Notes under the pieces: generated by a model
Told to the model about the DNA's origin: nothing
The model's input: only the letters and a program-made list of their open reading frames with translations
Database searches by the model: none
Program-made: the position numbers and the translations under genes
In this document: positions 3,443-32,233 of the stretch, piece by piece
Layout of the letters: each line of letters starts with the position of its first letter
Numbering within the stretch: position 1 is the first letter of the stretch
IMG/VR virus record: IMGVR_UViG_3300031772_000169
Coordinates: 1-32,566 of that record
From: a virus
Reading direction: 5' to 3' (one strand)
Length of the DNA stretch: 32,566 bases

Positions 3443-3516
3443 TGGGGTGCCCCATGGGACTCGAACCCACCTTTGCAGGGCCACAGCCTACCGTCCTACC
3501 GCTGAACGAGGGGCAC
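3443..3516 (-). tRNA. tRNA-His (anticodon GTG), CCA encoded
   Basis: Read on the minus strand it folds as a complete cloverleaf: 7-bp acceptor GTGCCCC/GGGGCAC, D-stem GTTC/GGAC, anticodon stem GTAGG/CCTGC around loop CTGTGGC (U33, anticodon GTG = His), a 4-nt variable loop, T-stem GTGGG/CCCAT with loop TTCGAGT, discriminator C73 and an encoded CCA. C73 fits histidine identity. The base at -1 is A, not the usual G. It sits inside the leftward operon, so it must be excised from the polycistronic RNA. Confidence 0.93.
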
Positions 3517-5871: not shown

Positions 5872-5873
5872 TT

Positions 5874-7386: not shown

Positions 7387-7553
7387 ATTTTCTTCTCCTT
7401 CACGTCAGTTGGATAAGACAGGGCCAGGAATAGGGCCCTTCGTTCTTCCTTCCCCTCGGCCACTTGCTGATCGAAGATTTTCTTCTGGAATCCGGTAAGG
7501 GCCGCGATCTTTTCTCTTATCCATTCATTGGATCTGGCCGGGAAATACTTCAT
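7383..7553 (-). CDS. Hypothetical small helical protein, 56 aa
   Basis: The frame extends upstream into the replication gene, but ATG at 7553 overlaps that gene's TAA by one base (TAATG) and follows GGAGATCAAG. The product starts MKYFPARSNEWIREKIAALT and is predicted helical and charged. Coupling to the replisome-organiser gene suggests an accessory replication role, which is inference. Confidence 0.65.
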   Translation of the reverse strand: MKYFPARSNEWIREKIAALTGFQKKIFDQQVAEGKEERRALFLALSYPTDVKEKKI

Positions 7554-8572
7554 TACTTGATCTCCTTCCCGATCTTCGATAGCAAATCTTTTATCTGATC
7601 TGGATTCATGGGTTTGAAGCAGGCCGGGCAGCATTCAAATTTCTTCAGATCTTCCAGGAGCGTTTCCTTCTTGCATTTTGGACAGGTGCCCCAAAGATCC
7701 TTGGCGACAACTTGTAGTTTCGGTCTTGCCTTGGACTGTCTGATATTGTCGTATTTCCCCTCCAGTACGCCTAGCGCATTCTCCTGGTTGGCCACAACCC
7801 AATCGTAAGTAGCTCGCCATCCCCGATCATTTTCTCCCATCAGAAAAGGTGTTTTGATGATCTTCTGGAAGACCTGGACCCAATAGGTATGTATATCCGG
7901 ATTCTCGCGTAGTCTGATCTTTGCCTTCTGGATTCTTGACGGTAGAGCTTCACGGACTTCCGGCAGGCCGGCATCGGCGCAAATGGCATTCCACGCCTGA
8001 ATCAGTTGGTGCGCATCCTGAAGTAATTTTTGATCTCTCACTTCTTCCTCCTCTGTCCTTTCCTGCTCGGGTGGATTCTCTGGTTCTTCTTCCTCTTCAA
8101 TCTCCGGCTCCAAAGCCTTATTCAGGCGCTTACTACTCAAGACTTTTTCGACCATAGAAATCAATTCTTCGTTATGACTTACTCTTCTAATTTCAGACTC
8201 CTGAATCCAATATCGAAACAGTTCTACCAATTTACTTTTTGGCAGTTTCGTGAGATTTGTCGCTATGCCCTTTGCATGTTTCTGGTTGGTGGCTGGATTG
8301 TATTTGAGAAAATTTTTGATGAAGATCACTGAATTTTCCTCATCAAAAGCTATCATCTTCTTTTCGATTAATTCCTGTCTGGCCGCGTTGTAATCCTCTT
8401 CCGTGAATTTTTTCAGATGTAGGAAAGTATATCCATTCCTAATGACGTAAAGGCCGATTCCGTTGGACTGAGGAGAAGTCATTAGATAGATAAAGAGGAT
8501 CATCGCGTCTTTACTCAAATACGGAAATGTTTGATCTTCCCATATTTTTACAAAGATCTTCCGGTAGTTCAT
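7553..8572 (-). CDS. Replisome organiser-like protein with C-terminal zinc ribbon
   Basis: 339 residues. The first 130 resemble the winged-helix N-terminus of phage replication initiators ('RKIFVKIWEDQTFPYLSKDA', 'ILFIYLMTSPQSNGIGLY'). A Glu-rich linker near 155-185 follows, then a helical domain with 'WNAICADAGLPEVREAL...R', a pattern seen in phage replication-protein C-terminal regions. The last 45 residues hold CPKC...CCPAC, a probable zinc ribbon. Such proteins load helicase at the phage origin. It would be the candidate initiator for the repeat region at 24811-25118. Confidence 0.75.
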   Translation of the reverse strand: MNYRKIFVKIWEDQTFPYLSKDAMILFIYLMTSPQSNGIGLYVIRNGYTFLHLKKFTEEDYNAARQELIEKKMIAFDEENSVIFIKNFLKYNPATNQKHAKGIATNLTKLPKSKLVELFRYWIQESEIRRVSHNEELISMVEKVLSSKRLNKALEPEIEEEEEPENPPEQERTEEEEVRDQKLLQDAHQLIQAWNAICADAGLPEVREALPSRIQKAKIRLRENPDIHTYWVQVFQKIIKTPFLMGENDRGWRATYDWVVANQENALGVLEGKYDNIRQSKARPKLQVVAKDLWGTCPKCKKETLLEDLKKFECCPACFKPMNPDQIKDLLSKIGKEIK

Positions 8573-10927: not shown

Positions 10928-11812
10928 TTAATATCTGAAGAGATCTTTGACTTCTCTGATCGTGCTCATTTGCCGGTTGGCAAAATATTCATATCCGAAT
11001 CTACCATCTGACAAGGTTTTTCGTTCCCGATTCAAAAGGAGATTCATGAGCGCATTCAGAGTAACAATACTTACTTTGTAACCATTCTGTCTTTTCTTTT
11101 CATCCATGGCTCTTCCCGACAACATATAATCACGCAATAAAAGCATAGGATGGGCGCGGGGAAGATTTTCTCCTTTTAGATAAGCCTCTTCATATTGCAT
11201 GATCTTTTCAAAAGAAACTTTTGCTGCAAAAGCGAAACACGCCAAAACAGTGCTCATCTTTAAATTTTTAAGATGAGCACTTTTTGAATGTACGATTACT
11301 TCATCAACCTCTTTTTTGTAGATTTGATAAATTTTGTTGGCCAAAGATGAAGTAATTTGGTGATGTCTATTGGTACATAAACTACAAAGTGCCCCCAGTA
11401 TCGAAGCCATCAAGGTTCCTTGTTTCCATCCATAAACAAGCATGCCCGTGTCTCCCACTCCTCTTTTGCGTCCTATGTCACACTTTCCGACCGCAGTTTT
11501 TGGAAGACCCTTGATAGCAGAAAAGATTTGATTCGTACCAGATAGAATAATGGCCTCTATGCGATGTTGACCATCAATCAGATGTCCATCAAAAGCGAAT
11601 CTGATTGGATCACCGACAAATTCCCAATCCCCATGTTTCATTGCAATCGTATAATTTTCAGCCGTCTTTGGGTAAAGCGGCCTATTATGGCCATTCCTCG
11701 TCGTCTTGATTTTAAGGGCCAACTCCGGCGTCATTTGGATACGCCTCATTTCTTCCTCCGGTGAATCGATCCACTTTTCCACTTGATTGGCTGACATAAT
11801 TACTTTGTCCAT
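10928..11812 (-). CDS. ParB/Srx-fold nuclease-domain protein
   Basis: 294 residues with 'FAFDGHLIDGQHRIEA' at 73-87, the phosphate-binding DGxHR motif of ParB/sulfiredoxin-fold proteins. The rest is helical with 'PRAHPMLLLRDYM', typical of phage members of this group rather than plasmid ParB; there is no clear HTH like that of the neighbour. Role unknown: possibly a nuclease or NTP-binding regulator. It directly follows the second ParB-like gene. Confidence 0.8.
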   Translation of the reverse strand: MDKVIMSANQVEKWIDSPEEEMRRIQMTPELALKIKTTRNGHNRPLYPKTAENYTIAMKHGDWEFVGDPIRFAFDGHLIDGQHRIEAIILSGTNQIFSAIKGLPKTAVGKCDIGRKRGVGDTGMLVYGWKQGTLMASILGALCSLCTNRHHQITSSLANKIYQIYKKEVDEVIVHSKSAHLKNLKMSTVLACFAFAAKVSFEKIMQYEEAYLKGENLPRAHPMLLLRDYMLSGRAMDEKKRQNGYKVSIVTLNALMNLLLNRERKTLSDGRFGYEYFANRQMSTIREVKDLFRY

Positions 11813-11813
11813 A

Positions 11814-12512
11814 CTATTCCTCCTCTTTTTTTGATTCTTGGTTCTCTTTAATCCAAGATAAAAATCTTTTCCGGTCTGCCTTACTTGCTATAGTCCAATA
11901 GCGTTTTAATGAGCGAAGCGTTTCTGTGCCTTCTGCCTTCTCCTCCGCAGTCTTTGGTTTCCTTGTAGGTCTTTTCTTCGGTTCTCCCTTCAATATTCTC
12001 GTTTGCTCTTCCGGAGAAAGATTATCTACCCATTTTGCTGCACGCTTCACCGTGGCCGGACTGACATGGTGCTGTTCGGCTATTTTCTCGGCCGTAGAAA
12101 ACGATGGTTCATTTTGATCTATCGTTTTTCCCCTTCCCGGACCAGCCTTCTGGAATACTTGTGCTTCCTTCTTCTCCAAATTATATTGAGTCCCAATGAG
12201 AACCCTTCTTTGGAGTGGTGTCAGATTCCGGCGGGCAAGTTGATTCCCGATGATCCATATTTTCGCCGCATCCCGATCATCAAAGGTCTTGGAGTGCGTC
12301 TTGAATTCGATCTCATGTCTCTTGCAAATCTCATATCTGGAATGGCCATCCAGCAACTTCCCATCCCAAAGAACGAGAGCATCCCGGCATCCTTCTTTTA
12401 ATAATGATGCCTCCAGCGCTTCCTTCTCGTCGGCTGTTAGGACTGGAATAAGATCTCTAAATTCAGGATCGATCTCTACGACGGGTATATCGATCATTCT
12501 TGGGGTATTCAT
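11814..12512 (-). CDS. ParB-like protein with helix-turn-helix
   Basis: 232 residues with the ParB N-terminal fold: 'LTADEKEALEASLLKEG', then 'LLDGHSRYEIC' (DGHSRY at 55-60), followed by a helix-turn-helix, 'STAEKIAEQHHVSPATVKRA', at about 139-159. The C-terminus is Lys/Glu-rich. Proteins of this design bind DNA and often act as phage or plasmid regulators. It starts immediately after the upstream stop (TAAATG). Confidence 0.85.
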   Translation of the reverse strand: MNTPRMIDIPVVEIDPEFRDLIPVLTADEKEALEASLLKEGCRDALVLWDGKLLDGHSRYEICKRHEIEFKTHSKTFDDRDAAKIWIIGNQLARRNLTPLQRRVLIGTQYNLEKKEAQVFQKAGPGRGKTIDQNEPSFSTAEKIAEQHHVSPATVKRAAKWVDNLSPEEQTRILKGEPKKRPTRKPKTAEEKAEGTETLRSLKRYWTIASKADRKRFLSWIKENQESKKEEE

Positions 12513-12924: not shown

Positions 12925-13352
12925 TCCTCTTCCTCCACTACTGGCTCTTCCTCGTCGATCCCCATGCGCATGAGGGCCAACCTTTCTTTCTTTATGGCCT
13001 GCCGTTTCATGAGCAAGGATTCACCCAATTCCAGTAAGTTCATCTGTTTGCCGAAAATAACTTTAGCGCCCAGGGGTTGGATCAGGGCCCGGATGGGTTC
13101 AAGACTTTGGGTGACATGGCAGAAGATAGGAAGAAGGTCGAGGGAGGGAATTCTATTTTCCTCGTTTTTGGTCCAGGAATTGATCACCACGGTTGTGATC
13201 TCCTTAGACCGCCCCTCGACCCCCAGGATTTCGTTCATCCGGTCTGCTATTTGATCTCTGGAAAGGTTTGAATCTTTAATGGCTTGGCGTAAGGCGCGTT
13301 TAAGGTGGGGAACCACTTCAAGGAATGATGGCGTCTTGGCGTTGTCTATCAT
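12921..13352 (-). CDS. Early regulator, putative DNA-binding protein
   Basis: 143 residues; first gene of the leftward operon, opposite the repressor. ATG at 13352 follows CAGGAGGCTAA. The N-terminal part 'LRQAIKDSNLSRDQIADRMNEILG' reads as a helix-turn-helix of the lambda-repressor-like class, followed by 'PSLDLLPIFCHVTQSL' as later helices. The C-terminus is charged and ends in four Glu. By position it corresponds to a Cro/Ner-like or early activator protein. The identification rests on position and the HTH-like stretch. Confidence 0.65.
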   Translation of the reverse strand: MIDNAKTPSFLEVVPHLKRALRQAIKDSNLSRDQIADRMNEILGVEGRSKEITTVVINSWTKNEENRIPSLDLLPIFCHVTQSLEPIRALIQPLGAKVIFGKQMNLLELGESLLMKRQAIKKERLALMRMGIDEEEPVVEEEE

Positions 13353-13364
13353 TTAGCCTCCTGT

Positions 13365-13378
13365 GGTCATTTCTGACC
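13365..13378. promoter_or_regulatory. Candidate repressor operator, early leftward promoter region
   Basis: Perfect inverted repeat GGTCA-TTTC-TGACC immediately upstream of the ribosome binding site of the first leftward gene. Its core CATTTCTGA (13368-13376) recurs exactly in the integrase promoter (14238-14246). The divergent gap 13353-13505 should hold both the leftward and the repressor promoters, but I see no clear sigma70 pair in it. Confidence 0.6.
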
Positions 13379-13505
13379 CTAAATTAGACATTGCTTTTTA
13401 AGGCAAAAAAATATAGACTGATTAACAGAATCCCCGACACGATGTTAAAAGTTTTGCCCATTAAATTTTGCATTGGATGATTCTTTATACACCAGGAGTT
13501 ATCAA

Positions 13506-14261: not shown

Positions 14262-14597
14262 ATGATCCAAGAAAATTTGGGCAAAAGGCTTACCAGGCAA
14301 GAACTCTCATCTGTTCTCGGGCTGAATTACAGAACAATCTGTGACCACTATGAAGACCTAGGCGGAATTCGGATAGGTAATCGATACCTTTTCTTTGAAA
14401 AGAATGTAATCCATGCCATACAAAAGGGGATCAATGTGGGTGGGCGAGGTCCGGCGGGGACGGCAGAGGATTCAGAAGTTATTCGGGTCCAAGAGGAAGG
14501 CGCTGGATTGGGAGAAAGACCAAAAAGACATTCCCGCCGAAAACTGGAAGATCGCCACGGAATCTTCCTTGGGCGAAATGGCTCTCGACTATCTTGA
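14262..14597 (+). CDS. Small HTH protein, possible excisionase, overlapping integrase
   Basis: The first 55 residues, 'RLTRQELSSVLGLNYRTICDHYEDLGG' in two parts plus 'RIGNRYLFFEKNVIHAI', form a MerR/excisionase-like winged helix-turn-helix. The tail (about 55 residues, polar and charged) overlaps the integrase gene by 185 nt in another frame and may be poorly constrained. There is no Shine-Dalgarno; the promoter places the transcript start at the ATG. Such genes upstream of phage integrases often direct excision or control int. Confidence 0.75.
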   Translation: MIQENLGKRLTRQELSSVLGLNYRTICDHYEDLGGIRIGNRYLFFEKNVIHAIQKGINVGGRGPAGTAEDSEVIRVQEEGAGLGERPKRHSRRKLEDRHGIFLGRNGSRLS

Positions 14598-15402
14598 TTA
14601 TTCCAAATCAAAACATTCAGCAAAAACGTACCAGACTAAAAAATCAGTCTTTGGACGATTCTTCGTATATTCTGATCCGGATATTCCCCCAGATAAACTC
14701 CGCGCCGATCAAGTTTTCTTTTACTTACAGGATCAGTTTAAAAAACGCTCGGGATATGCAGCAAACAAGGACCGTAAAAACCTACTTGCTTTTACCTCAT
14801 GGCTCTGGCGATACAAAGAAATACGATCTACCGCTGTTTCCTCTTGCGAAAGATTCCCCGAAGAACGCAGCCCCCGTTATATCCCCCCGGAAGAAGATTT
14901 CTGGAAAGTCTACGGAGAGGCGCCAACTCAAGATCAAGTAATGCTCCTCGCCTATCTGCATCTCGCGGCCAGGAGATCCGAACTCTTCCGGCTGAAGTGG
15001 GAGGATGTGGATTTTTCCCGCTCTCAAATCCGTCTGACCACCAGGAAAACCAAGGATGGCTCATGGAAGGCTCATTGGCTTCCCATGACCCCAAGACTCT
15101 CCAGCGCCCTCTTAGATCATCGGCAGGGCCAAGACGAAAAGAATGAGCTGGTCTTTTTAGATCCTCGCACAAACCTCCCTTATGTGAACCGATTACACCG
15201 GATGCACGATCTCTGCCAAAAAGCCGGAGTAAAGTTTTTCGGATTTCACGCGATAAGACATTTAACGGCTTCGCTCTTGGCCAAGGCAGGGGTGCCCATG
15301 ATCACCATACAGCAAATCCTTCGCCACGAATCATTGGCGACGACGGAGCGATACCTGCACAGCTTGGGGGATCTACGGCGAGCCTTGGAAAGTGTCTTTT
15401 GA
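14413..15402 (+). CDS. int: Tyrosine integrase
   Basis: 329 residues. It starts MPYKRGSMWVGEVRRG, the usual N-terminal arm-binding pattern of phage integrases, followed by a core-binding SAM-like domain (about 50-150). The catalytic set is present: Arg188 in 'ARRSELFRLKW', Lys212, His279/Arg282 in 'FHAIRH', His305 in 'LRHES', and nucleophile Tyr314 in 'TTERYLHS'. It catalyses attP x attB recombination. The gene starts inside the HTH gene, so the two are translated from one message. Confidence 0.94.
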   Translation: MPYKRGSMWVGEVRRGRQRIQKLFGSKRKALDWEKDQKDIPAENWKIATESSLGEMALDYLDYSKSKHSAKTYQTKKSVFGRFFVYSDPDIPPDKLRADQVFFYLQDQFKKRSGYAANKDRKNLLAFTSWLWRYKEIRSTAVSSCERFPEERSPRYIPPEEDFWKVYGEAPTQDQVMLLAYLHLAARRSELFRLKWEDVDFSRSQIRLTTRKTKDGSWKAHWLPMTPRLSSALLDHRQGQDEKNELVFLDPRTNLPYVNRLHRMHDLCQKAGVKFFGFHAIRHLTASLLAKAGVPMITIQQILRHESLATTERYLHSLGDLRRALESVF

Positions 15403-15996: not shown

Positions 15997-16593
15997 TTAT
16001 ATTTCATCGAATAATTTTGGCTGACGCAATTTCCCTTTTTCACCTATCACTTTTCCCTGCAAAAGCCTGAGATCAACAACTGCCCCATATTCAATGAACA
16101 CATCACGGAATCTATCAATATCCTTGTTCCAATAGATCATGGCGCATGACATTGGTGCACCCTTACCTTCGTCCTTCCCCTCAACGAGAAAACGGAGTCT
16201 CGTATCGTACAGAAAGCATACAGCGCTTGCCCGTCCCCACACATATTCCTTCCAATGGCTGGTGTTGGTTGCAACAGGCACTAAAGCAAGAACTTGCGAT
16301 CCATAATTCTTGTGGGCATGGGCACACTTATAAAGCCAATGTTTTATTGTCGTTCTATTCTCTTTGTCAGAGCCATAAGGTGGATTCACATAGATCGTAG
16401 GATAATTCCATGATTCCTTGAGTCCATTTTTTTCTGGTAGGCGGTATTCTGTCTTAGCATGGACAACAGACCACTCATTCGAGCATGGGTCAAGAAATAT
16501 TTTACCGCCAAAGACTCTTCTGACTGCGTTCACATACTTAGGAGGCGTACACCAGTTGACACTCTGCGAATTAACTGTCCTTCCCGCCGTCAT
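15997..16593 (-). CDS. Dam-type phage DNA N6-adenine methyltransferase
   Basis: 198 residues with the phage Dam family layout: 'WCTPPKYV' at 14-21, 'FLDPCSNEWS' at 33-42, catalytic 'NPPYG' at 70-74 (the DPPY-type motif IV), and a following 'LVPVATNTSHW' strand. It transfers a methyl group from S-adenosylmethionine to adenine in DNA. Its ATG overlaps the stop of the putative restriction enzyme gene (ATGA), so the two form an operon. It probably protects DNA against its partner. Confidence 0.88.
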   Translation of the reverse strand: MTAGRTVNSQSVNWCTPPKYVNAVRRVFGGKIFLDPCSNEWSVVHAKTEYRLPEKNGLKESWNYPTIYVNPPYGSDKENRTTIKHWLYKCAHAHKNYGSQVLALVPVATNTSHWKEYVWGRASAVCFLYDTRLRFLVEGKDEGKGAPMSCAMIYWNKDIDRFRDVFIEYGAVVDLRLLQGKVIGEKGKLRQPKLFDEI

Positions 16594-17732
16594 GAGTGTA
16601 TCTCCTGCCAGTTCTTTCCTTTCAAAGTGTCAAGTTCTTCCTTAAGAACAGCAAGCTGTTTCCCTGCTGGGGCGATGATGTTGAACCATCCTTCGATCAC
16701 CTTCATGTGCGACTTGAAATAGGACTGGAGAGCGGCATCAGCGGCAAGGGCAATCTGAACCTTTGTGAACTGATTGACTCCCTTCTCGCCTGTGTAGCTC
16801 GCCAGAAATGCCTCTTTCGCTGCCGTCAGTTCCCTTGCTGGATGGAACAACAACTCGTCAATAAACTGTGCAATTCCCGCATCGGTCAGAAAAAGAAGCC
16901 AGTCATAGGATTGAGCGAGAACCTTCAGTTCCTTGTTGTGATTTTCGGACGTGAACCAATTGCCGTGATTACTGACAACTCCTACCGTTAGAATAAAACG
17001 CGACAGAAGTTCCGAATCATCAGATGCGATAATTTCAGCCATCAGCTTGTAGTAGTCGTCAAGTCGGAACGATCCGTCACGCTTCTGAATCAGGCCGCCC
17101 ATACTGCCATTGGTCAACCTTATCTTCTGTAACGCGGACACTGTCCGAGCAACATAGGCTCCTTGCTTCGCCTTTTCGATTGTCTGTGGACCTTTCCGCA
17201 TTCCTTCTTCGACCCCCACCCGCTTGCACTCAAAAATCGCGAATGGGCGACATCGAAGAATCACAACAGAATACTGTCCTTTGTCCTTTTCGAGTTGGTC
17301 GAGATACGCATTTATGAAGGTTGCGCCAAGATCGCAGACGGTGCATGAGTTCCGAAGAATCAAGTCCTTGCTCAACAAAGCGTGCGACTTCATCGAACCA
17401 GCGGAGATTTCAATCTCGGCAAACTGTTGATTTTTGGAAATCTTCCTTGCTGTGATGGGAAGTTCATCTCGGCCAAACTCCGCTGTCATCAGATGGGTTG
17501 AGGGATGAAGACTGTACTCAACATTGTGGGTAATATCATCTTTACCGAACTCAGGTAGCGGTTTCTCTATCGCAATATTTTTTTCAAACCCCCATGATTT
17601 GAGGGCGTAGAACGTGATAATCTCGACAAGGGTGCCGAGCGCACGCCCCGCAGCTTTCTTGGAGTCTTTGGCGTAGTGGAACACCTTCTCGGTGAGAACC
17701 TTCTGGAGTTGGTCAACTGATGGGTATGACAT
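16590..17732 (-). CDS. Putative type II restriction endonuclease
   Basis: 380 residues from ATG at 17732 after ACGGAGA. The N-terminus 'KDSKKAAGRALGTLVEIITF' is helical with Glu36, and 'RPFAIFECKRVG' at 162-173 is a beta strand ending in E-x-K (Glu168, Lys170), the core of a PD-(D/E)XK nuclease; a preceding Asp at about 145-150 could complete it. Coupling to a DNA methyltransferase strongly suggests a restriction-modification pair. The cut site is unknown, though a Dam-type partner hints at an adenine-containing target. Confidence 0.75.
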   Translation of the reverse strand: MSYPSVDQLQKVLTEKVFHYAKDSKKAAGRALGTLVEIITFYALKSWGFEKNIAIEKPLPEFGKDDITHNVEYSLHPSTHLMTAEFGRDELPITARKISKNQQFAEIEISAGSMKSHALLSKDLILRNSCTVCDLGATFINAYLDQLEKDKGQYSVVILRCRPFAIFECKRVGVEEGMRKGPQTIEKAKQGAYVARTVSALQKIRLTNGSMGGLIQKRDGSFRLDDYYKLMAEIIASDDSELLSRFILTVGVVSNHGNWFTSENHNKELKVLAQSYDWLLFLTDAGIAQFIDELLFHPARELTAAKEAFLASYTGEKGVNQFTKVQIALAADAALQSYFKSHMKVIEGWFNIIAPAGKQLAVLKEELDTLKGKNWQEIHS

Positions 17733-17771
17733 TCTCCGTTTTCCCTTTCTGGTCTTCATATTCTTTATTTC

Positions 17772-17812: not shown

Positions 17813-17848
17813 GCTTCGTATGTGAGGCGAGCTTCGTATTTGAGACGT
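17813..17848. repeat. Two tandem 18-bp repeats
   Basis: GCTTCGTATGTGAGGCGA is followed directly by a copy with 15 of 18 matches (17831-17848). They lie just upstream of the restriction cassette promoter and before the terminator of the right-hand operon. A regulator binding site or remnant of a duplication are both possible. Confidence 0.5.
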
Positions 17849-23755: not shown

Positions 23756-24229
23756 TTAGACTAACCTTGGCTGGCCATTGGCCTGAGTTGGCTTTATTAG
23801 ACCAGCTTCAGTAAAGGAAGAATACTTCCCGTCAATCCCAAGGATGATATGATCCAATAATCTTATGCCCAGAAGGGCCAAAGCATTTTCAATTACTGAG
23901 GTTAAGTTCTTGTCATCCAACGAGGGTCCCGGATCTCCGCTTGGATGGTTATGGACGAGCACCACGCTCGCGGCGCCAGCTAAAAGAGTATGCTTCGCTA
24001 TCTCGCGGGGATAGATGATGGATCGGTCAATACTGCCTGGCTGGATGGTAATCCCTAATAGATGGTTTCTCTGGTCCAGGTAGATGACTATCATTTTCTC
24101 TATGTCTGAATTCTGAAGTTCGTGGGCGAAGGCGACCACCGTTTCAGGGGAATTCAGGGTGCGGTGTGCGTCATAAGGGAAGTCAGGCTCTTTAATTCTT
24201 CTGCTCTCTAACCGATACGCAAAGCTCAT
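23756..24229 (-). CDS. RadC-family JAB/MPN domain protein
   Basis: 157 residues. 'VVLVHNHPSGDPGPSLDD' holds the JAMM metal motif: His93, His95, Ser97 and Asp106, with an upstream 'ERE'-like Glu provided by 'YPREIAKH'. The C-terminus 'LLGIRLLDHIILG' is the usual RadC strand. Only the JAB domain is present; the N-terminal HhH domain of cellular RadC is missing, as in most phage and plasmid copies. Biochemical function is unsettled. It starts by a TAATG overlap. Confidence 0.9.
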   Translation of the reverse strand: MSFAYRLESRRIKEPDFPYDAHRTLNSPETVVAFAHELQNSDIEKMIVIYLDQRNHLLGITIQPGSIDRSIIYPREIAKHTLLAGAASVVLVHNHPSGDPGPSLDDKNLTSVIENALALLGIRLLDHIILGIDGKYSSFTEAGLIKPTQANGQPRLV

Positions 24230-24506
24230 TACTCTTGGCCTCCTTCCATGGCTAAATTCTTTTCAAGCTCGTCCATGGCGTCTGCTGCGGCCTTCTCGAT
24301 GGCCTCGTCGCTCAGGAATTCCTTGTAATCCCGCTCTCAAGGAAATCGATCAGCGCCCAAAGATTGGAGTCAAGCTCCTGGATCTCGTTGATGGTTAGCT
24401 GCGGTAATTCTACGTTGCTGTACTCTGGGTTTTTTAACAGGATGTCGCGGATCTTCGCGGCGCCCTCCAGAATCGAGTGTAAATATCTTGGTTCTATTTT
24501 TGGCAT
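24229..24506 (-). pseudogene. Frameshifted (or recoded) small helical protein
   Basis: ATG at 24506 follows AGGAGGATTCAGGGCC. Frame 1 codes 'PQLTINEIQELDSNLWALID' then FLE and, after GAGAG, runs to a stop at 24312 (64 aa). In another frame the DNA continues from the same point as ERDYKEFLSDEAIEKAAADA and an acidic end, stopping at 24229 in contact with radC. Removing the two bases GA from GAGAG (24334-24338) fuses both into one coherent protein of about 91 aa. A mutation, sequencing error or programmed -2/+1 shift could explain it. Confidence 0.6.
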
Positions 24507-24548
24507 GGCCCTGAATCCTCCTTCTTGGGGATATTTTCTTTGTTTTTA

Positions 24549-24581
24549 TATATAGCAAACCGCGTGCCAGAAGTCCACTTC
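24549..24581 (-). promoter_or_regulatory. Candidate promoter and operator of the right-hand leftward operon
   Basis: Minus strand: TGGACT (24577-24572), a 17-nt spacer, TATATA (24554-24549), about 30 nt before the ribosome binding site of the first gene. GAAGT-CC-ACTTC (24570-24581) overlaps the -35 box and may bind a regulator. A further inverted repeat ATTCAT-TGGTT-ATGAAT lies at 24617-24633. Confidence 0.55.
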
Positions 24582-24810
24582 CAGTGTAAAATAATCATCA
24601 AAAGTTTATCAGTATAATTCATTGGTTATGAATGATTTAAATCGAAGGCGATGAAATACTTCACCAAGAGTGTTCAAGGGTGGCAAAAAATGTCCATTTT
24701 TGTCTGTAAAATGTCAATTATGGAAGAGGATTAGACTATGAACGGGTAGGAACTGATGGTATTGAAGAGGATAAAATAGGAAAGGCCAATGATTATGCTT
24801 TATTGGCTTA

Positions 24811-24872
24811 TACTCTATGATACCCTATAGATAGTCTATCGATAGTCTATGATACTCTATCGATAGTGTATA
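24811..24872. repeat. Six tandem 10-11 bp iterons
   Basis: The consensus TA(C/G)(T/C)CTAT(C)GA is repeated six times head to tail: 24811, 24821, 24832, 24843, 24853 and a partial at 24864. Unit lengths of 10 or 11 bp put the copies on one face of the helix. Two contain the palindrome CTATCGATAG. Such arrays bind replication initiators or partition proteins. Confidence 0.75.
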
Positions 24873-24942
24873 TTTTGCAACATAGGAATTGCCGTATTTG
24901 ACAAAAAAGTGTAGCAATTTGCCACATGAGGCATTTTGCCCC

Positions 24943-24951
24943 TGTGGATAA
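24943..24951 (-). promoter_or_regulatory. Perfect DnaA box
   Basis: TGTGGATAA on the plus strand is TTATCCACA on the minus strand, the consensus DnaA box, between the two iteron clusters in AT-rich DNA. A chance single match is possible, but the company of iterons supports an origin. Confidence 0.6.
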
Positions 24952-25064
24952 GTCCTGTAAAAAAAAGACCAGCACGAGCGAAAAAAAATCAGTCAGGATT
25001 TTTCGTTTAGGGGAACTTGGCATCATGAAGTCACGTTCTTTAAAGAAATCAACAAGAAAGGCGA

Positions 25065-25118
25065 TAGAGTATCGATAGTCTATCGATACCCTTCTTATTC
25101 TTATTCTTATTCTTATGT
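25065..25118. repeat. Second iteron cluster and TTATTC tract
   Basis: TAGAGTATCGA and TAGTCTATCGA stand in tandem at 25065-25086; the second is identical to the copy at 24832-24842. TACCC follows, then TTATTC three times and a partial copy (25095-25118), an AT-rich hexamer tract suited to strand opening. Together with the first cluster and the DnaA box this gives the classical parts of an origin. Confidence 0.7.
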
Positions 25119-25382
25119 ATTTAGTTCTTTCTTTATGAACCTTTCTTTCTTGTCAGCTCGAAAAGGCTCAAGTCTAAATCGGCGAAACGAAAACGTCTGA
25201 TAATAGTTAAACTGTAAACTTCAGATGTAAACTTTAGAGTGGCCGGCGAAACGAGAAGCCTTACAATCGATATCGGATACCGAATGGCTGTCACCCACGC
25301 ACTTTGCCTCCAAAGGATGACAAGGCCAGCTTTCCAAAGTCCCGTCCTGGACGATTCTACGAGCCTGGCTTTTGACAGCTCC

Positions 25383-25525
25383 AGGTCTAGGCCCAGGTCC
25401 GGGCCCAGGTCCAGGTCCAAACCAAGCTTTATGTCCATAGCCTGCAGGTCTAGGCCCAGGTCTAGGCCCAGGTCCGGGCCCAGGTCCAGGTCCAAACCAA
25501 GCTTTATGTCCATAGCCTGCAGGTC
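25383..25525. repeat. GC-rich 75-bp tandem repeat built of 12-mers
   Basis: The block ending GTCCATAGCCTGC recurs with a 75-nt period (25383-25444 and 25445-25519), the second copy having one extra AGGTCTAGGCCC unit. Within it, AGGTC(T/C)(A/G)GGCCC 12-mers repeat. Because both periods are multiples of three, frames on both strands remain open (Gly/Leu/Asp-rich one way, Arg/Ser/Pro-rich the other), but no start signal supports a gene. Possible protein-binding or packaging site, or replication-slippage product. Confidence 0.75.
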
Positions 25526-26130
25526 TCACTCCCGGCTCGATGAGGGCTTGGCCCTGAATCCCGCGTCCTTTGGCGTGTTAGTTTTACAACATTCAACCCT
25601 TTTCCTCTATTAGATTTGCCTTCATGCCCATCCAACCCACAAAAATAGGGCAGGGTAGGGGCATGAGTCATCAAGGCCCGGGGAAGAGGGAGAGGGCCAA
25701 TGGTTCTACTCCCTCTCAAGCACATGAACACCCCTTTTTATAATTTTTCCTCTCAATTCTGCAAATAATCATTTTTGATTATCTATCGACCCCGTTTTTC
25801 CCCCAGGTAACGATTTCCGTTACTATTTGCAACTCCCAGTTTAAAAATATCTCCATTCCTCGACTTCCGGTACTGTTTTTCTCTTATTTATAAAATTTTC
25901 CCCTTCACTTATTAAGATTTGCAGGTATTTTGTCGCAAGTTCTGTCGCAAGTCTGTTTTTCCCCCTAATCATCACCTAAATTCTCCGGTTTCCGCTTAAT
26001 CCTTGCCGTCAAGGTGACACTATCGACCTCTTCCGCGTCTCTTTTTACGTCCGGAAGGTTAAAGTCTCGCCTAAATCGATCTGGCTGATTCACGATCGAT
26101 GTATTTTTAAAATTTTCCTCAAAATAATTC
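25526..26130. other. Gene-free control region with inverted and direct repeats
   Basis: No convincing gene. Visible structure: ATAATCA-TTTT-TGATTAT (25765-25782), GTAACG-ATTTC-CGTTAC (25807-25823), and TGTCGCAAGT twice with a 12-nt period (25931, 25943). GTAAACTTCAGATG occurs at 25214-25227 and again at 26194-26207, inside the start of the small membrane gene. These are plausible operators for the late operon or binding sites for packaging or replication proteins. Confidence 0.5.
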
Positions 26131-26159
26131 GTGACAAATCCAATGAAAGAGTGTATCAG
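26131..26159 (+). promoter_or_regulatory. Candidate promoter of the packaging/structural operon
   Basis: GTGACA at 26131-26136, a 17-nt spacer and TATCAG at 26154-26159; the transcript would start near 26166, just before the first small gene. Five of six bases match at -35 and four of six at -10. A phage late activator might be needed. Confidence 0.45.
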
Positions 26160-26183
26160 GAGATTATATTGATTACATTTACG

Positions 26184-26303
26184 ATGAATCGCGGTAAACT
26201 TCAGATGGAAAATTGGGGTCAGGACAGACCGAGAGATTCGATGTGGGATTTAGTGGTCTTTGTGGCGATTATGTGCCTGATCTTATGGGTCGTAAGGGGG
26301 TAA
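26184..26303 (+). CDS. Small membrane protein, 39 aa
   Basis: The frame MNRGKLQMENWGQDRPRDS continues with 'MWDLVVFVAIMCLILWVVRG', one clear transmembrane helix after a polar N-terminus. Start options are ATG 26184, ATG 26205, ATG 26241, or TTG 26169, the last with AGGAG at good spacing. It precedes the packaging genes. Function unknown; a holin-like role cannot be judged from one helix. Confidence 0.5.
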   Translation: MNRGKLQMENWGQDRPRDSMWDLVVFVAIMCLILWVVRG

Positions 26304-26309
26304 AAGTAT

Positions 26310-26669
26310 CTGAGAACGACGGCCAAACACTTCGAAGAGTTCAAGACGGAGTTCTTGCGATGGCAAAACTACTTCGGATGTATGGATTGGGAAATAATCT
26401 TCGAATGGAAGCCACTGGAAGATGCGGACGCAGAGATTCATTGGGATATCGCAGGGAAAATGGCCACGGTCCGTCTCAACACCATATTGGAGCGGGGAGA
26501 TCCCAAATTTGCAGCCTTTCACGAGGCGGTCGAACTCTGGTTGGCTCCACTTCGATATATGTGCAAAGCGCGATTCATAGATTTCGACACGATGAATCAG
26601 GAATTCCATGGGATCGTCCGGTTCATCGAGAATCGGTTTTATCCGCTGATCAAAGGAGGGGGGAAGTGA
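26310..26669 (+). CDS. HExxE-containing phage protein upstream of terminase
   Basis: The coherent reading frame opens at 26304 with KYLRTTAKHFEEFKTEF, then 'WQNYFGCMDWEIIFEWKPLE', 'ATVRLNTILERGDP', 'FAAFHEAVELWLAPL' and 'HGIVRFIENRFYP'. The His-Glu-Ala-Val-Glu in a helix and general layout recall a phage family found near terminase genes and resembling small metallopeptidases. No ATG is available: CTG 26310 (8 nt after AAGGGGG) or TTG 26355 are candidates, and I chose CTG because the N-terminal part looks coding. The stop overlaps the next GTG. Confidence 0.65.
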   Translation: MRTTAKHFEEFKTEFLRWQNYFGCMDWEIIFEWKPLEDADAEIHWDIAGKMATVRLNTILERGDPKFAAFHEAVELWLAPLRYMCKARFIDFDTMNQEFHGIVRFIENRFYPLIKGGGK

Positions 26670-26920
26670 ACGGTAAGCGGGCGCGAGAACTTCGCAAGGC
26701 TGTTTACGGGAAAAGGTACATTCGGCAAACCGAATTCCTTAACCCGGCCATGGCCTACGACATGACAAACGTGAAACTCCAGGAGAAGGCCGTCGGTATT
26801 GACTTAGAGACTTTCTTGCCCATCAAGGTCAAGACCATCGTGGATGCCACGGTGATCTGCATCGGGCCCCGGGCAAAGTATCAGGAGTTGAAGAAAAATG
26901 CGGGCACCCGCCGAGCCTAA
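26666..26920 (+). CDS. Conserved phage protein preceding terminase, 84 aa (GTG start)
   Basis: GTG at 26666 follows AAAGGAGGGGGGAA and overlaps the previous stop (GTGA). The product starts 'MNGKRARELRKAVYGKRYIR', then 'KVKTIVDATVICIGPRAKYQ' and ends basic. The frame stays open far upstream, but that part is the shadow of the preceding gene. Short proteins starting 'ngKeAR.LRk.vYG' and ending 'R..Yq..Kk' commonly precede phage terminase genes. Function unknown. Confidence 0.75.
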   Translation: MNGKRARELRKAVYGKRYIRQTEFLNPAMAYDMTNVKLQEKAVGIDLETFLPIKVKTIVDATVICIGPRAKYQELKKNAGTRRA

Positions 26921-27572
26921 AAAACTTATGCGTCCCCTGATCCCGGAAGTTATTGCCGATGAGGGCAAATCGACGGCTTTGGTTCAAGTGGGGCGGTCAG
27001 CCGCAGTATTAGCAGCCGCCGCCCTGATCAAAAAAGGGAAGCCCTGGGATTTCTTGGAGCAAGAGAAAGCCTTCGAATTTTATTTTAATCTTGGAGAAAA
27101 ACGAACTCTCGATCAAGTTGCAAAAAAGTTAAAAGTTCCCATCGCCTCAGTTGAGAATTGGAAGGAAGAATACCATTGGGACGCCAATCTTAGAGTTAAA
27201 ACTTTTATGGGGGAAATGCGGCCAAGCCTTCAAGAGGCAAAAGAAGCAAACGATTTATTACTTCATAGAATGACCATGCCGGAGTTGGAAGAGATAAAAA
27301 TAGAAAGTGGGAGATTGAAACCGGGTCGAAGATTAATTGACTCTGAAAATCGCTTGCCCATTCCGCCCAAACGGGTATTAAACCCCGTTTACGCAGGATC
27401 AAAAGCCCTATCTGATATTATTGGGAATTATAAAGATCTAAAGACTCTGGCCTACGATGAACGCGACAAAGAAATAGCCATAGCAGAGTCGTTAAGGGGC
27501 AAAGTTGAAGATGAGTCTGGCAAGGGTCCAAAGAATATAGTTCAAGTCAACGTCCAAGTCATAAAATCATGA
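26898..27572 (+). CDS. terS: Terminase small subunit
   Basis: 224 residues. A helix-turn-helix lies at about 73-100: 'RTLDQVAKKLKVPIASVENW' followed by 'KEEYHWDANL', the Trp-rich pattern of phage terminase small subunits, which recognise the packaging site and regulate the large subunit. The C-terminal third is charged and ends 'NIVQVNVQVIKS', a strand seen at the C-terminus of many small terminases. It overlaps the next gene by 4 nt (ATGA). AGGAG lies 11 nt upstream of the ATG. Confidence 0.8.
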   Translation: MRAPAEPKKLMRPLIPEVIADEGKSTALVQVGRSAAVLAAAALIKKGKPWDFLEQEKAFEFYFNLGEKRTLDQVAKKLKVPIASVENWKEEYHWDANLRVKTFMGEMRPSLQEAKEANDLLLHRMTMPELEEIKIESGRLKPGRRLIDSENRLPIPPKRVLNPVYAGSKALSDIIGNYKDLKTLAYDERDKEIAIAESLRGKVEDESGKGPKNIVQVNVQVIKS

Positions 27573-30037
27573 GTGGGTCTCAATATATATACAACATAGT
27601 GTTTGATTACCGAAACGCGCCCACACTTGAGCGTTTCAGCAATAGCGATAAGCGCATCCGGGCGGTCGTCGGTCCATTCCGAAGCGGAAAATCAAGTGCC
27701 TGTTGTTTTGAACTTTATACAAGGGCTACGCAGCAAAACCCTGATTCCAAAGGAGTCCGGCGCACACGTTGGGCAGTGGTGAGGAACACCTACCCCGAAC
27801 TCAAAGACACAACCATCAAAACCTTTCTCGATTGGTTCCCTCCAGAATACTTCGGGCATTTCCGTTTAAACCCGAATCCAGAATACCAAATGAACTTCCC
27901 GCTGCCCGACGGTACTACTCTGCAAGCGGAATTCCTGTTTCGGGCACTCGATAAACCCGAGCACGTCAAGAATCTTCTGTCTCTGGAGGTAACGGGCGCC
28001 TGGTTCAACGAGGCCCGGGAGATCCCCAAAATCATCATCGACACAATGGATGGTCGTATCAATCAATATCCGGCCATGAAGGACGGTGGGGCTACCTGGG
28101 GTGGGATGATCTTAGACACGAACCCCTGCGATACGGACCATTGGTTTTATAAACTTTTCTGCGAAGATCTTCCGAATAATCTCGCCCTTCAAGACCATTA
28201 CGAATATTTTCATCAACCTTCCGGTCGATCACCGCGGGCTGAGAATCTTTCCCATTTACCCAAAAATTACTACCAGGATTTTATGGTTGGGAAAGACGCC
28301 GACTTTATCAGCGTCTATGTGGATGGGCAGTACGGATTCGTCCGAGAGGGCAAGGTCATCTATACGAATTACTTGGATTCCGCTCACTGTGCCACAGAAA
28401 TTCTTAAGGGCAGGGCAGGACTTCCACTTATTACCGGCTGGGACTTCGGTTTGTGCTATTCGGCAGATACCGAAGTTTTAACGATTGATGGATGGAAATT
28501 TTTTAAAGATGTGGATGAGAAAAGAGATCTTGTCGCTACTCGCAATCCCGAATCAGGAATGATGGAATATACCAAGATCAATTTTAAGATCGAGAGGGAT
28601 TACGAAGGCGAACTTTTGGAATGGTCAAACCAAAATGTAAATTTTTGTGTAACCCCAGAACACCGAGTACCATTTACCTTCCGGGATACTCCAAATAGGG
28701 TTGTTTTCGGGTCTGCGGAATGGTTAGCGCAAAATCCTGGTGGACATCATTATGTCGATTTAGTTTCCAGCTGGAATGTGCTTCCTACCAGCAAGAAATA
28801 TTTGGCCGGCATGTGTGCAAAAGATTATGCCAGATTCATGGGCATTTATTTGGCTGAAGGTTCTTCGGATACCTGGAGAACAACCATTTATCAAAAATAT
28901 CGAGAATCCGATATCGAGGAGATTTTGGTAAAAACGGATCTTCCGTGGAAGTGGAATTCAGACAAGAAAACGAGTGGATGGAGACTCAATAAAACATCCA
29001 TTGCTAAAGAACTAAAAAAACTTGGTACAGCAAAAAGCAAAAGAATTCCACGGGAAATTAAAGATATGCCATCGGATTGTATCTTGGCCTTTATTCTGAC
29101 CTACACAATGGGTGACGGAAATATTAGGGTTAGAGAAAACGGGGCTTTTGAACACACCATATTTACTGTCTCCCCAAATATGGCGGATGACTTTCAAGAA
29201 TTGGCTCAAAAGATTGGATGGTACGCCAGTATCCGCAAGGTGAAACCGCAGGAAAGTACGATCATAGAAGATGGTCTTCCCAGGAAGATAAAGAACAACG
29301 GTGGATTTTCTATCACATTCAAAAAGGGAGCCAAAAGAGCGGAATTATTTTCCAGAGATTTTCTGCGCGTGCCATATTCTGGAAAGATTTATTGTCTCAA
29401 TGTTCCCTATCACACCCTTTATATTCGCCGAAACGGGATTGCTTCCTGGAATGGTAATACCCCGGCTTGCGTGATTATGCAGTACGAACCCAAGGGGCGC
29501 CTGAATGTTCTCCATGAACTCTGCGCATCCGAAATGGGGATCCGGTCTCTGGCCACGAACGTGGTCAAGCCTTTTATCCTGGCGACCTACCCGGGATTCC
29601 AAATCATCTCCGGATGTGACCCGGCGGGTACTCATCGCTCCGAGATCGACGAGAATCTTACCGCGATCATCGAACTTAAGAACTGCGGATTCAGCGTGAA
29701 ACCGGCCTGGACGAATGCTCTGGAAGCGAGATTCAGCACGATCGATAACTTCCTCACCCGAAGGATAGAGGGTGATAAGCCGGCCTTCCAACTTTCTCCG
29801 GAGTGCAAGGTTCTCAGAAAGGGATTCAACGGGGAATACAAAAGGCGTCGGCTCCAGGTAGCCGGAGCAGAGATCTATTCCGACGCCCCGGAAAAGAATA
29901 TGGTCTCCCATCCTCACGAGGCCCTTCAGTATGCGGCCATGATCATCGAACGCGGGATGAGAAGTTACGAAAAGACCGGCTGGAATACCCAAGGCGCCGT
30001 CAAGACAAATCCCCCTTCAAAGTTGGCGTGGGCATAA
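27569..30037 (+). CDS. terL: Terminase large subunit interrupted by an intein
   Basis: 822 residues as encoded. ATPase: Walker A 'GPFRSGKS' at 35-42; 'VTGAWFNEAREI' at about 143-154 is the Walker B region with catalytic Glu. The nuclease domain begins 'LITGWDFGL', its first Asp being metal-binding, then is interrupted by an intein (residues 296-630) and resumes 'TPACVIMQYEPKGRLNVLHE'. After splicing the protein would be 487 residues, normal for a phage packaging motor. It cuts and translocates DNA into the prohead through the portal encoded downstream. Confidence 0.93.
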   Translation: MSGSQYIYNIVFDYRNAPTLERFSNSDKRIRAVVGPFRSGKSSACCFELYTRATQQNPDSKGVRRTRWAVVRNTYPELKDTTIKTFLDWFPPEYFGHFRLNPNPEYQMNFPLPDGTTLQAEFLFRALDKPEHVKNLLSLEVTGAWFNEAREIPKIIIDTMDGRINQYPAMKDGGATWGGMILDTNPCDTDHWFYKLFCEDLPNNLALQDHYEYFHQPSGRSPRAENLSHLPKNYYQDFMVGKDADFISVYVDGQYGFVREGKVIYTNYLDSAHCATEILKGRAGLPLITGWDFGLCYSADTEVLTIDGWKFFKDVDEKRDLVATRNPESGMMEYTKINFKIERDYEGELLEWSNQNVNFCVTPEHRVPFTFRDTPNRVVFGSAEWLAQNPGGHHYVDLVSSWNVLPTSKKYLAGMCAKDYARFMGIYLAEGSSDTWRTTIYQKYRESDIEEILVKTDLPWKWNSDKKTSGWRLNKTSIAKELKKLGTAKSKRIPREIKDMPSDCILAFILTYTMGDGNIRVRENGAFEHTIFTVSPNMADDFQELAQKIGWYASIRKVKPQESTIIEDGLPRKIKNNGGFSITFKKGAKRAELFSRDFLRVPYSGKIYCLNVPYHTLYIRRNGIASWNGNTPACVIMQYEPKGRLNVLHELCASEMGIRSLATNVVKPFILATYPGFQIISGCDPAGTHRSEIDENLTAIIELKNCGFSVKPAWTNALEARFSTIDNFLTRRIEGDKPAFQLSPECKVLRKGFNGEYKRRRLQVAGAEIYSDAPEKNMVSHPHEALQYAAMIIERGMRSYEKTGWNTQGAVKTNPPSKLAWA
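28454..29458 (+). mobile_element. Intein with LAGLIDADG-type endonuclease in terL
   Basis: 335 residues. Block A 'CYSADTEVLTIDGW' starts with Cys1; block B 'FCVTPEHRV' has the Thr-x-x-His; blocks C and E are 'FMGIYLAEGS' and 'LTYTMGDGNI', degenerate LAGLIDADG motifs ending in Glu-Gly and Gly-Asp-Gly; block F/G is 'KIYCLNVPYHTLYIRRNG' and the end is Trp-Asn-Gly-Asn followed by Thr+1. The penultimate residue is Gly rather than His. It splices itself out; the endonuclease spreads the element into empty terL alleles. Confidence 0.92.
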
Positions 30038-30195: not shown

Positions 30196-32233
30196 CGGAC
30201 TCGTACCGGTGAAGACACCGGACCAAGTTACCCAAGAGAAAATCAAGGCGGGCGAAATCCCCATTGCTACAGCTACGGCAATTCCCGATTCGGCCCTTTC
30301 TTCTTTGGCTGCCCATATCCGCAGATTCTGGTCGGCGGCAGTAAAGGCGAAGAAAGCTCCCGAAGATCAGATGTTAAAGAACCTGCGGCAGATCGAGGGG
30401 ATTTATGAACCGGATGTAGCGGCGGCCATCAAGGAAGTGGATGCCCCCATGATCTATGCCAAACTTACAGATGCCAAATGCCGCTCAGCCATCGCCTGGA
30501 TCAAAGAAGTTATTATTCAGCCGCAACCACCTTGGTCCATTGAAACTACTCCCGAACCTGATATGCCGGATACGGTCATCGCGCAGATTCGGAATACTTT
30601 CATCCAAGAAGCCTTCTCCACCCTTATGACCTCGATGAGTCAATCGGGACAACCTGTTGACCCCATGATGGTCTTCTCACAGGTCCGACAGATGATCCCG
30701 GTATTTGAAGAGGAAATGAAAAAGATCGTTCTTAAGAAGGCCAAGGAGATCACGCAGAAATTAAAAGTCACGATCGATGATCGTCTTGTAGAAGGCGGTT
30801 GGTATGAAGCTCTTGAAGACTGTATTCCCGATATCGTGCAGTTAAAGGCCGGATTTATTAAGGGGCCCGTCTATCGCAAAGAGAAAGTAAAAAAGCCAGA
30901 ACAAAGTGAAGAGGGGAAATTCAAGATCGTTTACAAAGATCAGGTCATCCCGAAATACGAGTGGCGGTCTGCATTTAATATTTATCCATCCCCCGATTCC
31001 ACGGGCATCAACGACGGGGGGGTGATCGATTTGATTTCCATCCGATCCCGGGATCTCCACGGACTTATCGGGGTTGAGGGATTCAAGAAGGAAGAGATTG
31101 AAGCGGTCATTACAGATTACGGAACTGGAGGTCTCCAGGAGTGGACCAAAAAGGCCGCCGAGATGGAAGTGGCTATGATTCAGGGCATAGATTCGTCCTC
31201 CGTCTGGCAATCCCAAAAGATCGACTGTCTGGAATATTGGGATGTTGTGTCCGGTAAGATGTTGATCGAATGGGGGATGACCAAAAAAGAAATTCCCGAT
31301 CCGACCAAACAATATCCGATCTGCGCCTGGCTGATTGGCACGCATGTTATCAAAGCCATGCTCAATGAAGATCCCCTCGGCAAGATACCATTTCATAAAG
31401 TTTCCTTCAACGAAAAGCCTGGCGTCTTTTGGGGAGAAGGTTTACCGGAACTCATCGCCGATATCATACGCTCCCTCAATGCCTGCTTCCGGGCGATTCT
31501 ATACAATATCGGAGTTGGATCTGGTCCTCAAACCGAAATTGATCAGGATCGATTGGCCCCCGGCGAATCTCCCAAACTCTGGCCGTGGAGGGTATGGCTT
31601 ACCAAAAATGAAACCATGCTCAATCAGCCGGCCATCCGGTTTTATGCCCCTCCGATGGTCGTGGAGAGATTGATCAGCGCGTTCAACTTCTATTCTAAAT
31701 TGGTTGACGAATACTCGGGTGTTCCCGCTTACGCTCATGGAGATCCGCAAGTAGGCGGTGCCGGGAATACGGCCTCTGGACTTTCCATGTTGATCACCCA
31801 GGCGGCCCGGGGGATCAAGAACGTCATCAAGAATATCGACCGCAATTTGATTGAACCTACAGTGACAGCGCAGTTCGAGATGACGATCGGAGACGAACAG
31901 AATATCGGTCTGATCCCGGATTACAAGATCATAGCCCGCGGATCTTCCACCCTGATCGCCAAGGAACAGCAAGCGATTCGGAGAACCGAATTCCTGGCCA
32001 TAACCAATAATCCACTGGATTCGCAGATCATGGGCGCGGAGGGGAGGAGCTACCTTCTGGAAGCTGCGGCCCAACCCCTCGACCTTGATCTCGACAAACT
32101 TCTTCCAAACAGAAATAACCCACAGGCGCAGTTACCGCAGCAAGCTATTGCTTCACCTGCTGCGCCTCAGACTTTGAATGCGGGGGGCGAACCGGTGGTG
32201 GGAACCGACTTTCGCCAGTTTGGTCAAAGATAA
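30188..32233 (+). CDS. Portal protein
   Basis: 681 residues. 'VEGGWYEALEDCIPDIVQLK' then 'AGFIKGPVYRKEKVKK', 'FNIYPSPDSTGINDGG', 'PFHKVSFNEKPGVFWGEGLP' and 'AGNTASGLSMLITQAARGIK' give the pattern of large portal proteins of podovirus-like phages. Portals form the dodecameric ring through which terminase pumps DNA. Its place right after terL and the small gene agrees. The C-terminus is Pro/Gln/Ala-rich and probably flexible. Confidence 0.85.
   Translation: MSNGLVPVKTPDQVTQEKIKAGEIPIATATAIPDSALSSLAAHIRRFWSAAVKAKKAPEDQMLKNLRQIEGIYEPDVAAAIKEVDAPMIYAKLTDAKCRSAIAWIKEVIIQPQPPWSIETTPEPDMPDTVIAQIRNTFIQEAFSTLMTSMSQSGQPVDPMMVFSQVRQMIPVFEEEMKKIVLKKAKEITQKLKVTIDDRLVEGGWYEALEDCIPDIVQLKAGFIKGPVYRKEKVKKPEQSEEGKFKIVYKDQVIPKYEWRSAFNIYPSPDSTGINDGGVIDLISIRSRDLHGLIGVEGFKKEEIEAVITDYGTGGLQEWTKKAAEMEVAMIQGIDSSSVWQSQKIDCLEYWDVVSGKMLIEWGMTKKEIPDPTKQYPICAWLIGTHVIKAMLNEDPLGKIPFHKVSFNEKPGVFWGEGLPELIADIIRSLNACFRAILYNIGVGSGPQTEIDQDRLAPGESPKLWPWRVWLTKNETMLNQPAIRFYAPPMVVERLISAFNFYSKLVDEYSGVPAYAHGDPQVGGAGNTASGLSMLITQAARGIKNVIKNIDRNLIEPTVTAQFEMTIGDEQNIGLIPDYKIIARGSSTLIAKEQQAIRRTEFLAITNNPLDSQIMGAEGRSYLLEAAAQPLDLDLDKLLPNRNNPQAQLPQQAIASPAAPQTLNAGGEPVVGTDFRQFGQR

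Follow-up and report, generated by a model that had tools for sequence, protein, structure and literature searches.

A candidate iteron-type replication origin with conserved position and divergent repeats upstream of the terminase genes in an uncultured temperate phage and its relatives

What is the role of a gene-free stretch of about 1.6 kb, with clusters of short repeats, that separates two divergent operons in an uncultured, temperate phage? The stretch is found in a 32.6-kb virus record (IMG/VR record IMGVR_UViG_3300031772_000169; the whole of its 32,566 nucleotides is called the window here), which is evidently a fragment. Two contigs, G008 and G009 (99.99% and 99.98% identical), and the terminase locus L009 (100%) extend the phage to 55.8 kb; the ends of this assembly are not closed, and we infer a circular map. 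The stretch extends over roughly 24507-26212, and only unmatched ORFs occupy it, in agreement with the original prediction. Five ORFs of 62-126 aa within it or at its edge (24370-24558, 25133-25513, 25221-25529, 25239-25613, and 25504-25731) gave no match in Pfam or PHROG. To the left is a leftward operon with RadC and AAA+/DUF1257/DUF3150 genes. Rightward from 26.9 kb are the terminase small subunit (26898..27572, + strand; PHROG 6299, E 3.4e-11), the terminase large subunit (27569..30037, + strand), and a portal-like gene (SU10_portal, under the Pfam cut-off). The window also encodes a CI-like repressor, an integrase, RecT, YqaJ, and an O/DnaD-like initiator. On balance, we favor the reading that the region at 24.8-25.1 kb is a theta origin of the iteron type. 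Its initiator would probably be the O/DnaD-like protein, whose gene lies 16 kb from it.

The elements on which this reading was first based, namely six units of 10-11 bp, two more units, one DnaA box, and hexamers, are all read directly in the sequence. Repeat cluster 1 (24810..24872, + strand) consists of six head-to-tail 10-11 bp units of the form GATAS-N-STATC: ATACTCTAT(G) at 24810-24819, GATACCCTATA at 24819-24829, GATAGTCTATC at 24830-24840, GATAGTCTATG at 24841-24851, GATACTCTATC at 24851-24861, and GATAGTGTATA at 24862-24872. Repeat cluster 2 (25063..25089, + strand), about 190 nt beyond cluster 1, has two complete units, GATAGAGTATC at 25063-25073 and GATAGTCTATC at 25074-25084, the second identical to the unit at 24830-24840, followed by a partial unit, GATAC, that extends to 25089. 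Palindromes had been noticed earlier in the repeats; the units are near-palindromes, and cluster 2 holds a 9-bp inverted repeat, GTATCGATA.GTC.TATCGATAC.

When the window was searched for GATAS-N-STATC with at most one mismatch, all seven matches were inside the two clusters; the shuffle control gave a mean of 2.3 matches, and 2 of 100 shuffles reached seven. TRF scored the array 64, 84, and 96 at periods 11, 21, and 32, respectively. The repeated-8-mer score was 30, compared with 12 or less in 200 shuffles (0/200 reached 30). The autocorrelation of the array in 60 bp had a z of 4.97, only equal to the best of 20 shuffles, and two other places scored higher, namely 25381-25526, a G/C-rich duplication, and a window of 9-bp period at 17846. 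Because autocorrelation alone is unremarkable, the strength of the case comes from the clustering and from the comparison with other genomes. A cluster of tandem repeats beyond chance, as expected of an iteron origin of the lambda/SPP1 type, is thus present in this phage.

Eight TerL loci were available for the comparison with close relatives. One of them, L009, is this phage, and three (L011, L012, and L016) hold little upstream sequence; the relatives with enough upstream sequence were G001 (TerL 80%), G002 and G003 (69-70%), and L015 (51%). A tandem 12-bp array was found in the same intergenic region of G001, G002, and G003, with sequences that differ from those of this phage. The array of G001 (31794-31980 in G001 coordinates) is TGATAATACGAG x7.6 facing an inverted ATTATCACCACA x5.6, that of G002 is TACCGTATGGGA x4.3, and that of G003 is AGCCCGTTTAAC x3.8. 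Among 9-13 bp periodic windows, the arrays of G001 and G002 are the top ones of their records, and the array of G003 ranks second behind an adjoining AGAAAG tract; all three exceed 20 shuffles. In L015, the next relative with upstream sequence, no array was found at the corresponding place.

Little else of the intergenic sequence is shared. BLASTN of 24551-26200 gave no match in G002 or G003 at E 0.01 and a single match in G001, at 25657-25728 (72%). When viral contigs were searched for the same 20-bp iteron pair, the one match was another contig of the same phage. The original prediction had named absence of the repeats from close relatives as grounds for giving it up. Taken literally, this is what was found for the exact repeats, but other arrays take their place at the same position. 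The helical phasing that was claimed for the units is limited in a similar way: it suits this phage, with its 10-11 bp units, better than the relatives, whose period of 12 bp is not a whole helical turn. A position that is kept while the sequence is wholly replaced looks like what is expected of a co-evolving pair of protein and site.

A candidate DNA unwinding element adjoins cluster 2. The tract at 25089..25155 has low stability, is pyrimidine/purine-asymmetric, and contains (TTCTTA)4, detected by TRF as (TTCTTA)x4.2 at 25092-25116. By computed stability, the least stable 60-bp window of the 55.8 kb begins at 25091, on the TTCTTA hexamers. In the duplex-stability check that had been proposed for the locus, the 60-bp minimum fell in the intergenic region in 4/4 genomes (this phage, G001, G002, and G003), counting known sequence only, with G002 a fragment of 16.8 kb and G003 one of 28.6 kb. 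The minimum was also intergenic in 4/4 genomes with 100-bp windows, and in 3/4 with 150-bp windows, where this phage ties with 13442 in the CI-Cro gap. A candidate unwinding element beside the repeats, the second feature of lambda/SPP1-type origins, is present by computed stability. Against an origin, A/T-richness is common in divergent promoter regions anyway.

The strand asymmetry of the tract, which we noticed post hoc, is shared as well. A purine/pyrimidine-asymmetric 60-bp tract was present within 250 nt to the right of the array in 4/4 genomes, ranking in the top 0.08% of 60-bp windows in this phage, 0.19% in G001, 0.19% in G002, and 0.01% in G003; to the left of the array, the corresponding figures were 0.69, 12, 2.8, and 1.2%. 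The tract is the genome-wide maximum in G003 only. Its + strand is pyrimidine in this phage and G002, and purine in G001 and G003. In ori-lambda, nearly all purines of the A+T-rich region are described as lying on one strand (PMC5043065). In sum, the original reading as an origin gains from the same-position arrays and from the weak duplex and asymmetric tract in 4/4 genomes, and loses from the missing exact repeats.

The third sequence element, the box between the clusters, adds less. TTATCCACA at 24943..24951 (- strand), which we take to be the DnaA box consensus, has no second TTATNCACA beside it anywhere in the phage's 55.8 kb. Chance alone would give about 0.5 TTATCCACA in that length, so the box is weak on its own. 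G003 has three boxes, none of them farther than about 560 nt from its array, and G001 and G002 have none; a DnaA box was thus found in 2/4 genomes.

The main rival explanation is that the repeats are an operator array for divergent transcription, in which a phage regulator binds them cooperatively and controls the leftward and the rightward (late) promoters. We consider this unlikely, but it has real points in its favor: the array lies between divergent operons, and its units are near-palindromic, as expected for a dimeric regulator. The corresponding region of G001 has 18 promoter-like sites, compared with 5.6 in shuffles, and nine of them are in the array or overlap it. These nine arise because the unit TGATAATA reads as TTATCA/TATTAT (-35/-10) hexamers. 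In this phage, only three promoter-like sites were found in 24200-26400, compared with a shuffle mean of 3.8, and none was inside the clusters. Operators do not by themselves predict the nearby strand-asymmetric tract seen in 4/4 genomes. Operators of CI and Cro in particular were rejected as an identity of the units, since the CI-Cro intergenic gap (about 13352-13473) has no such units.

Closeness to the terminase genes raises a second explanation, a packaging site (pac/cosB-like) in which a ring of the terminase small subunit binds the repeats. The array is 1.8-2.1 kb upstream of terS, the arrays of the relatives are similarly placed relative to terL, and TerS of this phage shares only 24-26% identity with that of the relatives, so that TerS sites could diverge. 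The helix-turn-helix stretch of TerS nevertheless still aligns (34-42%, in G001 and G003), yet the arrays are wholly different. A better cos/pac candidate is the 25657-25728 match, the only intergenic sequence whose conservation BLASTN detected, and we regard packaging by way of the repeats as improbable.

This conserved element (25657..25728, + strand; AGGGGCATGAGTCATCAA...CCCTCTCAAGCACATGAA) is 72 bp long and lies upstream of terS. It is conserved while the remaining intergenic sequence differs, and it is a candidate packaging (cos/pac) or regulatory element.

Still less probable is a partition centromere of the ParB, ParR, or TubR type, bound by the protein of 10928-11812 or of 11814-12512. 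Tandem repeats of 11-12 bp suit ParR- or TubR-type centromeres. The original prediction had offered these two proteins, both described as ParB-like, as alternative binders; only the 11814-12512 protein matches a ParB family (PHROG, E 2.5e-7). At E 1e-3, G001 showed no homologue of either gene although its array is the largest, and this weakens both proteins as binders. ParA, ParM, and TubZ were not recognized among the proteins scanned (a subset of the ORFs of an unclosed genome), and a phage with an integrase need not partition. Least probable of all are attP arm sites for the integrase (14413-15402): clusters of short repeats flanking a spacer can occur at attP, but the integrase gene is 9.4 kb from the array, and G001 carries an array yet has no homologue of the window's integrase at E 1e-3.

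The preferred reading, an iteron-type origin, calls for an initiator. The candidate is the O/DnaD-like replisome organizer encoded at 7553..8572 (- strand), which has a C-terminal CxxC-CxxC motif and matches PHROG 10469, 1701, 345, and 6251 (DnaD-like helicase loader, O-like, replisome organizer). A homologue was seen in G001 only, G002 and G003 being fragments; its identity was 37% in one alignment, and 51% in a C-terminal and 38% in an N-terminal segment. From these matches, a phage-encoded O/gp38-like initiator, the third feature of lambda/SPP1-type origins, appears to be present. The AlphaFold model of the protein was poor (pLDDT 52) and gave no PDB fold match at E 0.001. Repeats of the lambda-O type inside the initiator gene were also sought, and none was found by TRF or period scan in this phage or in G001. 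The distance of 16 kb between initiator gene and repeats, which the original prediction had pointed out, is not disqualifying, because in phage SPP1 a distance of about 13 kb separates oriR from oriL, and oriL is inside the initiator gene 38 (PMC6316719). The prediction was also right that no standard Rep gene is beside the repeats: the scanned neighbors were RadC, AAA+, TerS, TerL, and the unmatched ORFs. Judged from these gene matches, the locus does not appear to be a classical iteron plasmid origin, in which a Rep-type initiator gene is beside the iterons.

Several known origins resemble the locus in part. Both the lambda iterons and the classical plasmid iterons are longer than the 10-11 bp units here. 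The nearest precedent is oriR of SPP1, used by the initiator gp38, which is in a long intergenic region remote from gene 38 (PMC6316719). Like the locus here, it has direct repeats and an A+T-rich unwinding element, and SPP1 encodes a single-strand annealing recombinase (PMC6316719), as this phage encodes RecT. The likeness is one of layout and gene content. There are two differences: SPP1 has oriL inside gene 38, whereas no repeats were found in the initiator gene here, and oriR interrupts the late region, whereas the array here is at the divergence point.

The lambda origin shares iterons and an A+T-rich tract with purines almost all on one strand (PMC5043065), and the initiator here matches an O-like PHROG; in contrast, the lambda origin is inside the O gene, and the array here is intergenic and remote. 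Iteron plasmid origins (P1, F, RK2, and R6K) share phased direct repeats, an A+T-rich region, and a DnaA box (PMC5043065). They differ in that no RepA/RepE/pi-type initiator was found among the proteins scanned here, no rep gene is beside the repeats, and only a single DnaA box is present. The origin of the Vibrio satellite PLE has semi-palindromic, noncoding repeats bound by PLE's own initiator (PMC7145576), but that initiator is of the RepA_N type, and the one here is O/DnaD-like.

Layout of the genome and GC skew were also analyzed. From the array, a long late region reads rightward and another region leftward; the two converge near -1.0 kb (window coordinates), a point nearly opposite the array if the genome is circular and close to 55.8 kb in size. 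The arms from the array are about 25.9 and at least 29.9 kb in this phage; for G001, provided that its contig is nearly complete, they are about 24.8 and 22.9 kb. Skew had been suggested as a check on the origin, and the outcome was divided: the cumulative GC-skew minimum of G001 (31869) is inside its array, with the maximum (6720) at the convergence point, but in the 55.8-kb sequence of this phage the minimum is at window position 26141, about 1 kb to the right of the array. The third-codon-position skew of this phage (+ strand) has a slightly negative value to the left of the array and to the right of it alike, with no sign change. This indicates that most of the skew signal follows gene orientation, and we rejected GC skew as proof of an origin. 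Confounded as it is by gene direction, it gives weak support.

If the region is an origin, initiation might proceed as follows. The phage O/DnaD-like protein (7553-8572), most likely, would bind both repeat clusters and wrap or bend the DNA. The hexamer tract at 25089-25155 would then melt, possibly with host DnaA assisting at 24943-24951, and loading of the replicative helicase would follow. Forks would depart both ways and travel toward the place where the operons converge, almost across the circle from the array. We infer the binding, melting, initiation, and directionality of this scheme, as we do the circular map, from the features described above.

The comparison was extended to the wider TerL clade. 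A TerL profile scan gave at least 80 loci, of which 37 with less than 2.6 kb upstream of terL were excluded; 42 of the other 43, together with the window and L015, made up the 44 loci used for repeat scoring. Loci that had over half of their TerL 12-mers in common were treated as near-duplicates; 11 were dropped on this ground and 33 remained, the window and its relatives among them, and the addition of L057, whose redundancy was checked against eight loci only, gave 34. The densest short-repeat 600-bp segment was 0.9-3.1 kb upstream of terL at 25/34 loci among the matches listed (24/33 without L057), by a score that pools coding and noncoding repeats and has no shuffle control. At the other nine (L015, L024, L031, L034, L035, L040, L044, L045, and L047) the peak was absent from this interval. 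L080, with 2.5 kb upstream and thus under the limit, scored 3. In this window the absolute 600-bp peak was the G/C-rich duplication; when it was masked, the array formed the peak, with a score of 30. The least stable 100 bp was 0.9-3.1 kb upstream of terL at 19/33 loci (L057 excluded), compared with 7.3 expected by length. In a repeated-8-mer test of 21 hand-chosen gap regions, 14 were at 0/200 shuffles and L018 (G002) was at 1/200; L059, L082, L031, L026, L048, and L015 were not significant.

The repeat words differ among loci. Counted with no shuffle control, words of the CTTTACA/CTTAACA/CTTGACA type were among the commonest in 14/27 listed loci, and ACTATCT was among the commonest in 7/27, L085 and L092 being near-duplicates. 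Dense fields of two motifs were seen about 0.9-3.1 kb upstream of terL in L049, L050, L068, L085, and L092, with up to 23 copies of CTTTACA/CTTAACA and nine of ACTATCT in L092. The repeats in this wider clade need not have the same function as those here. Among named phages with a related TerL, gene order is divergent upstream of terL in Cronobacter Ss1, Vibrio VA-RY-3, and Pelagibacter Hodr, and no clear iterons were found in their gaps when these were read by eye, unscored. Other named phages with a related TerL, by annotation only, are BcepC6B, MEP301, Pmp11, Rollin, RHph_TM3_14A, and vB_Pun_Y3. In the open-access literature searched, no origin was found described for phages of this group.

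The region is likely a further example of a known origin type, and the fixed position with complete turnover of the repeats is most worth following. If the reading is correct, origins in an uncultured phage group could be found by a simple rule, at the point upstream of terS where the operons diverge. The initiator/iteron pairs would also form a natural series, with the position kept and the sequence fully turned over. Such a series would be useful for studying the co-evolution of origins and initiators, and how neighboring phages avoid cross-firing of their origins. A broader and rather doubtful possibility is that the clade with related terminases has a replication control region of fixed position and volatile sequence beside the packaging genes, each lineage with its own repeat set (GATAGTCTATC, TGATAATACGAG, or CTTTACA with ACTATCT) and a melting tract nearby. 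The control region here is about 0.6 kb from the conserved candidate packaging element, and so it may link packaging to the switch from theta replication to concatemers. In SPP1, such a role has been proposed for the stalling of forks at oriR bound by gp38.

As for the host, no TerL relative was found among the genome contigs scanned, and a second scan gave a single weak match, at 30%, to an AAA+ protein from a Sphingomonas MAG. Several other features of the window were observed. The G/C-rich duplication (25381..25526) is an exact tandem duplication of 71/75 bp with G/C-rich 12-mers, and in sample 3300031707 the same phage is split at it, G009 ending at 25385 and L009 starting at 25522. Relative to the TerL of G001, the terminase large subunit carries an insert of about 340 aa with a LAGLIDADG domain, a probable intein. 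The 389-aa protein of 16590-17759 matched nothing in Pfam or PHROG at E 0.001. The leftward operon contains an RNA ligase-like gene (2132-2707) and a tRNA-His gene (3443-3516). A DUF5131 protein (4972-5880, E 1.9e-72) is kept in G001, with 52% identity over 187 aa.
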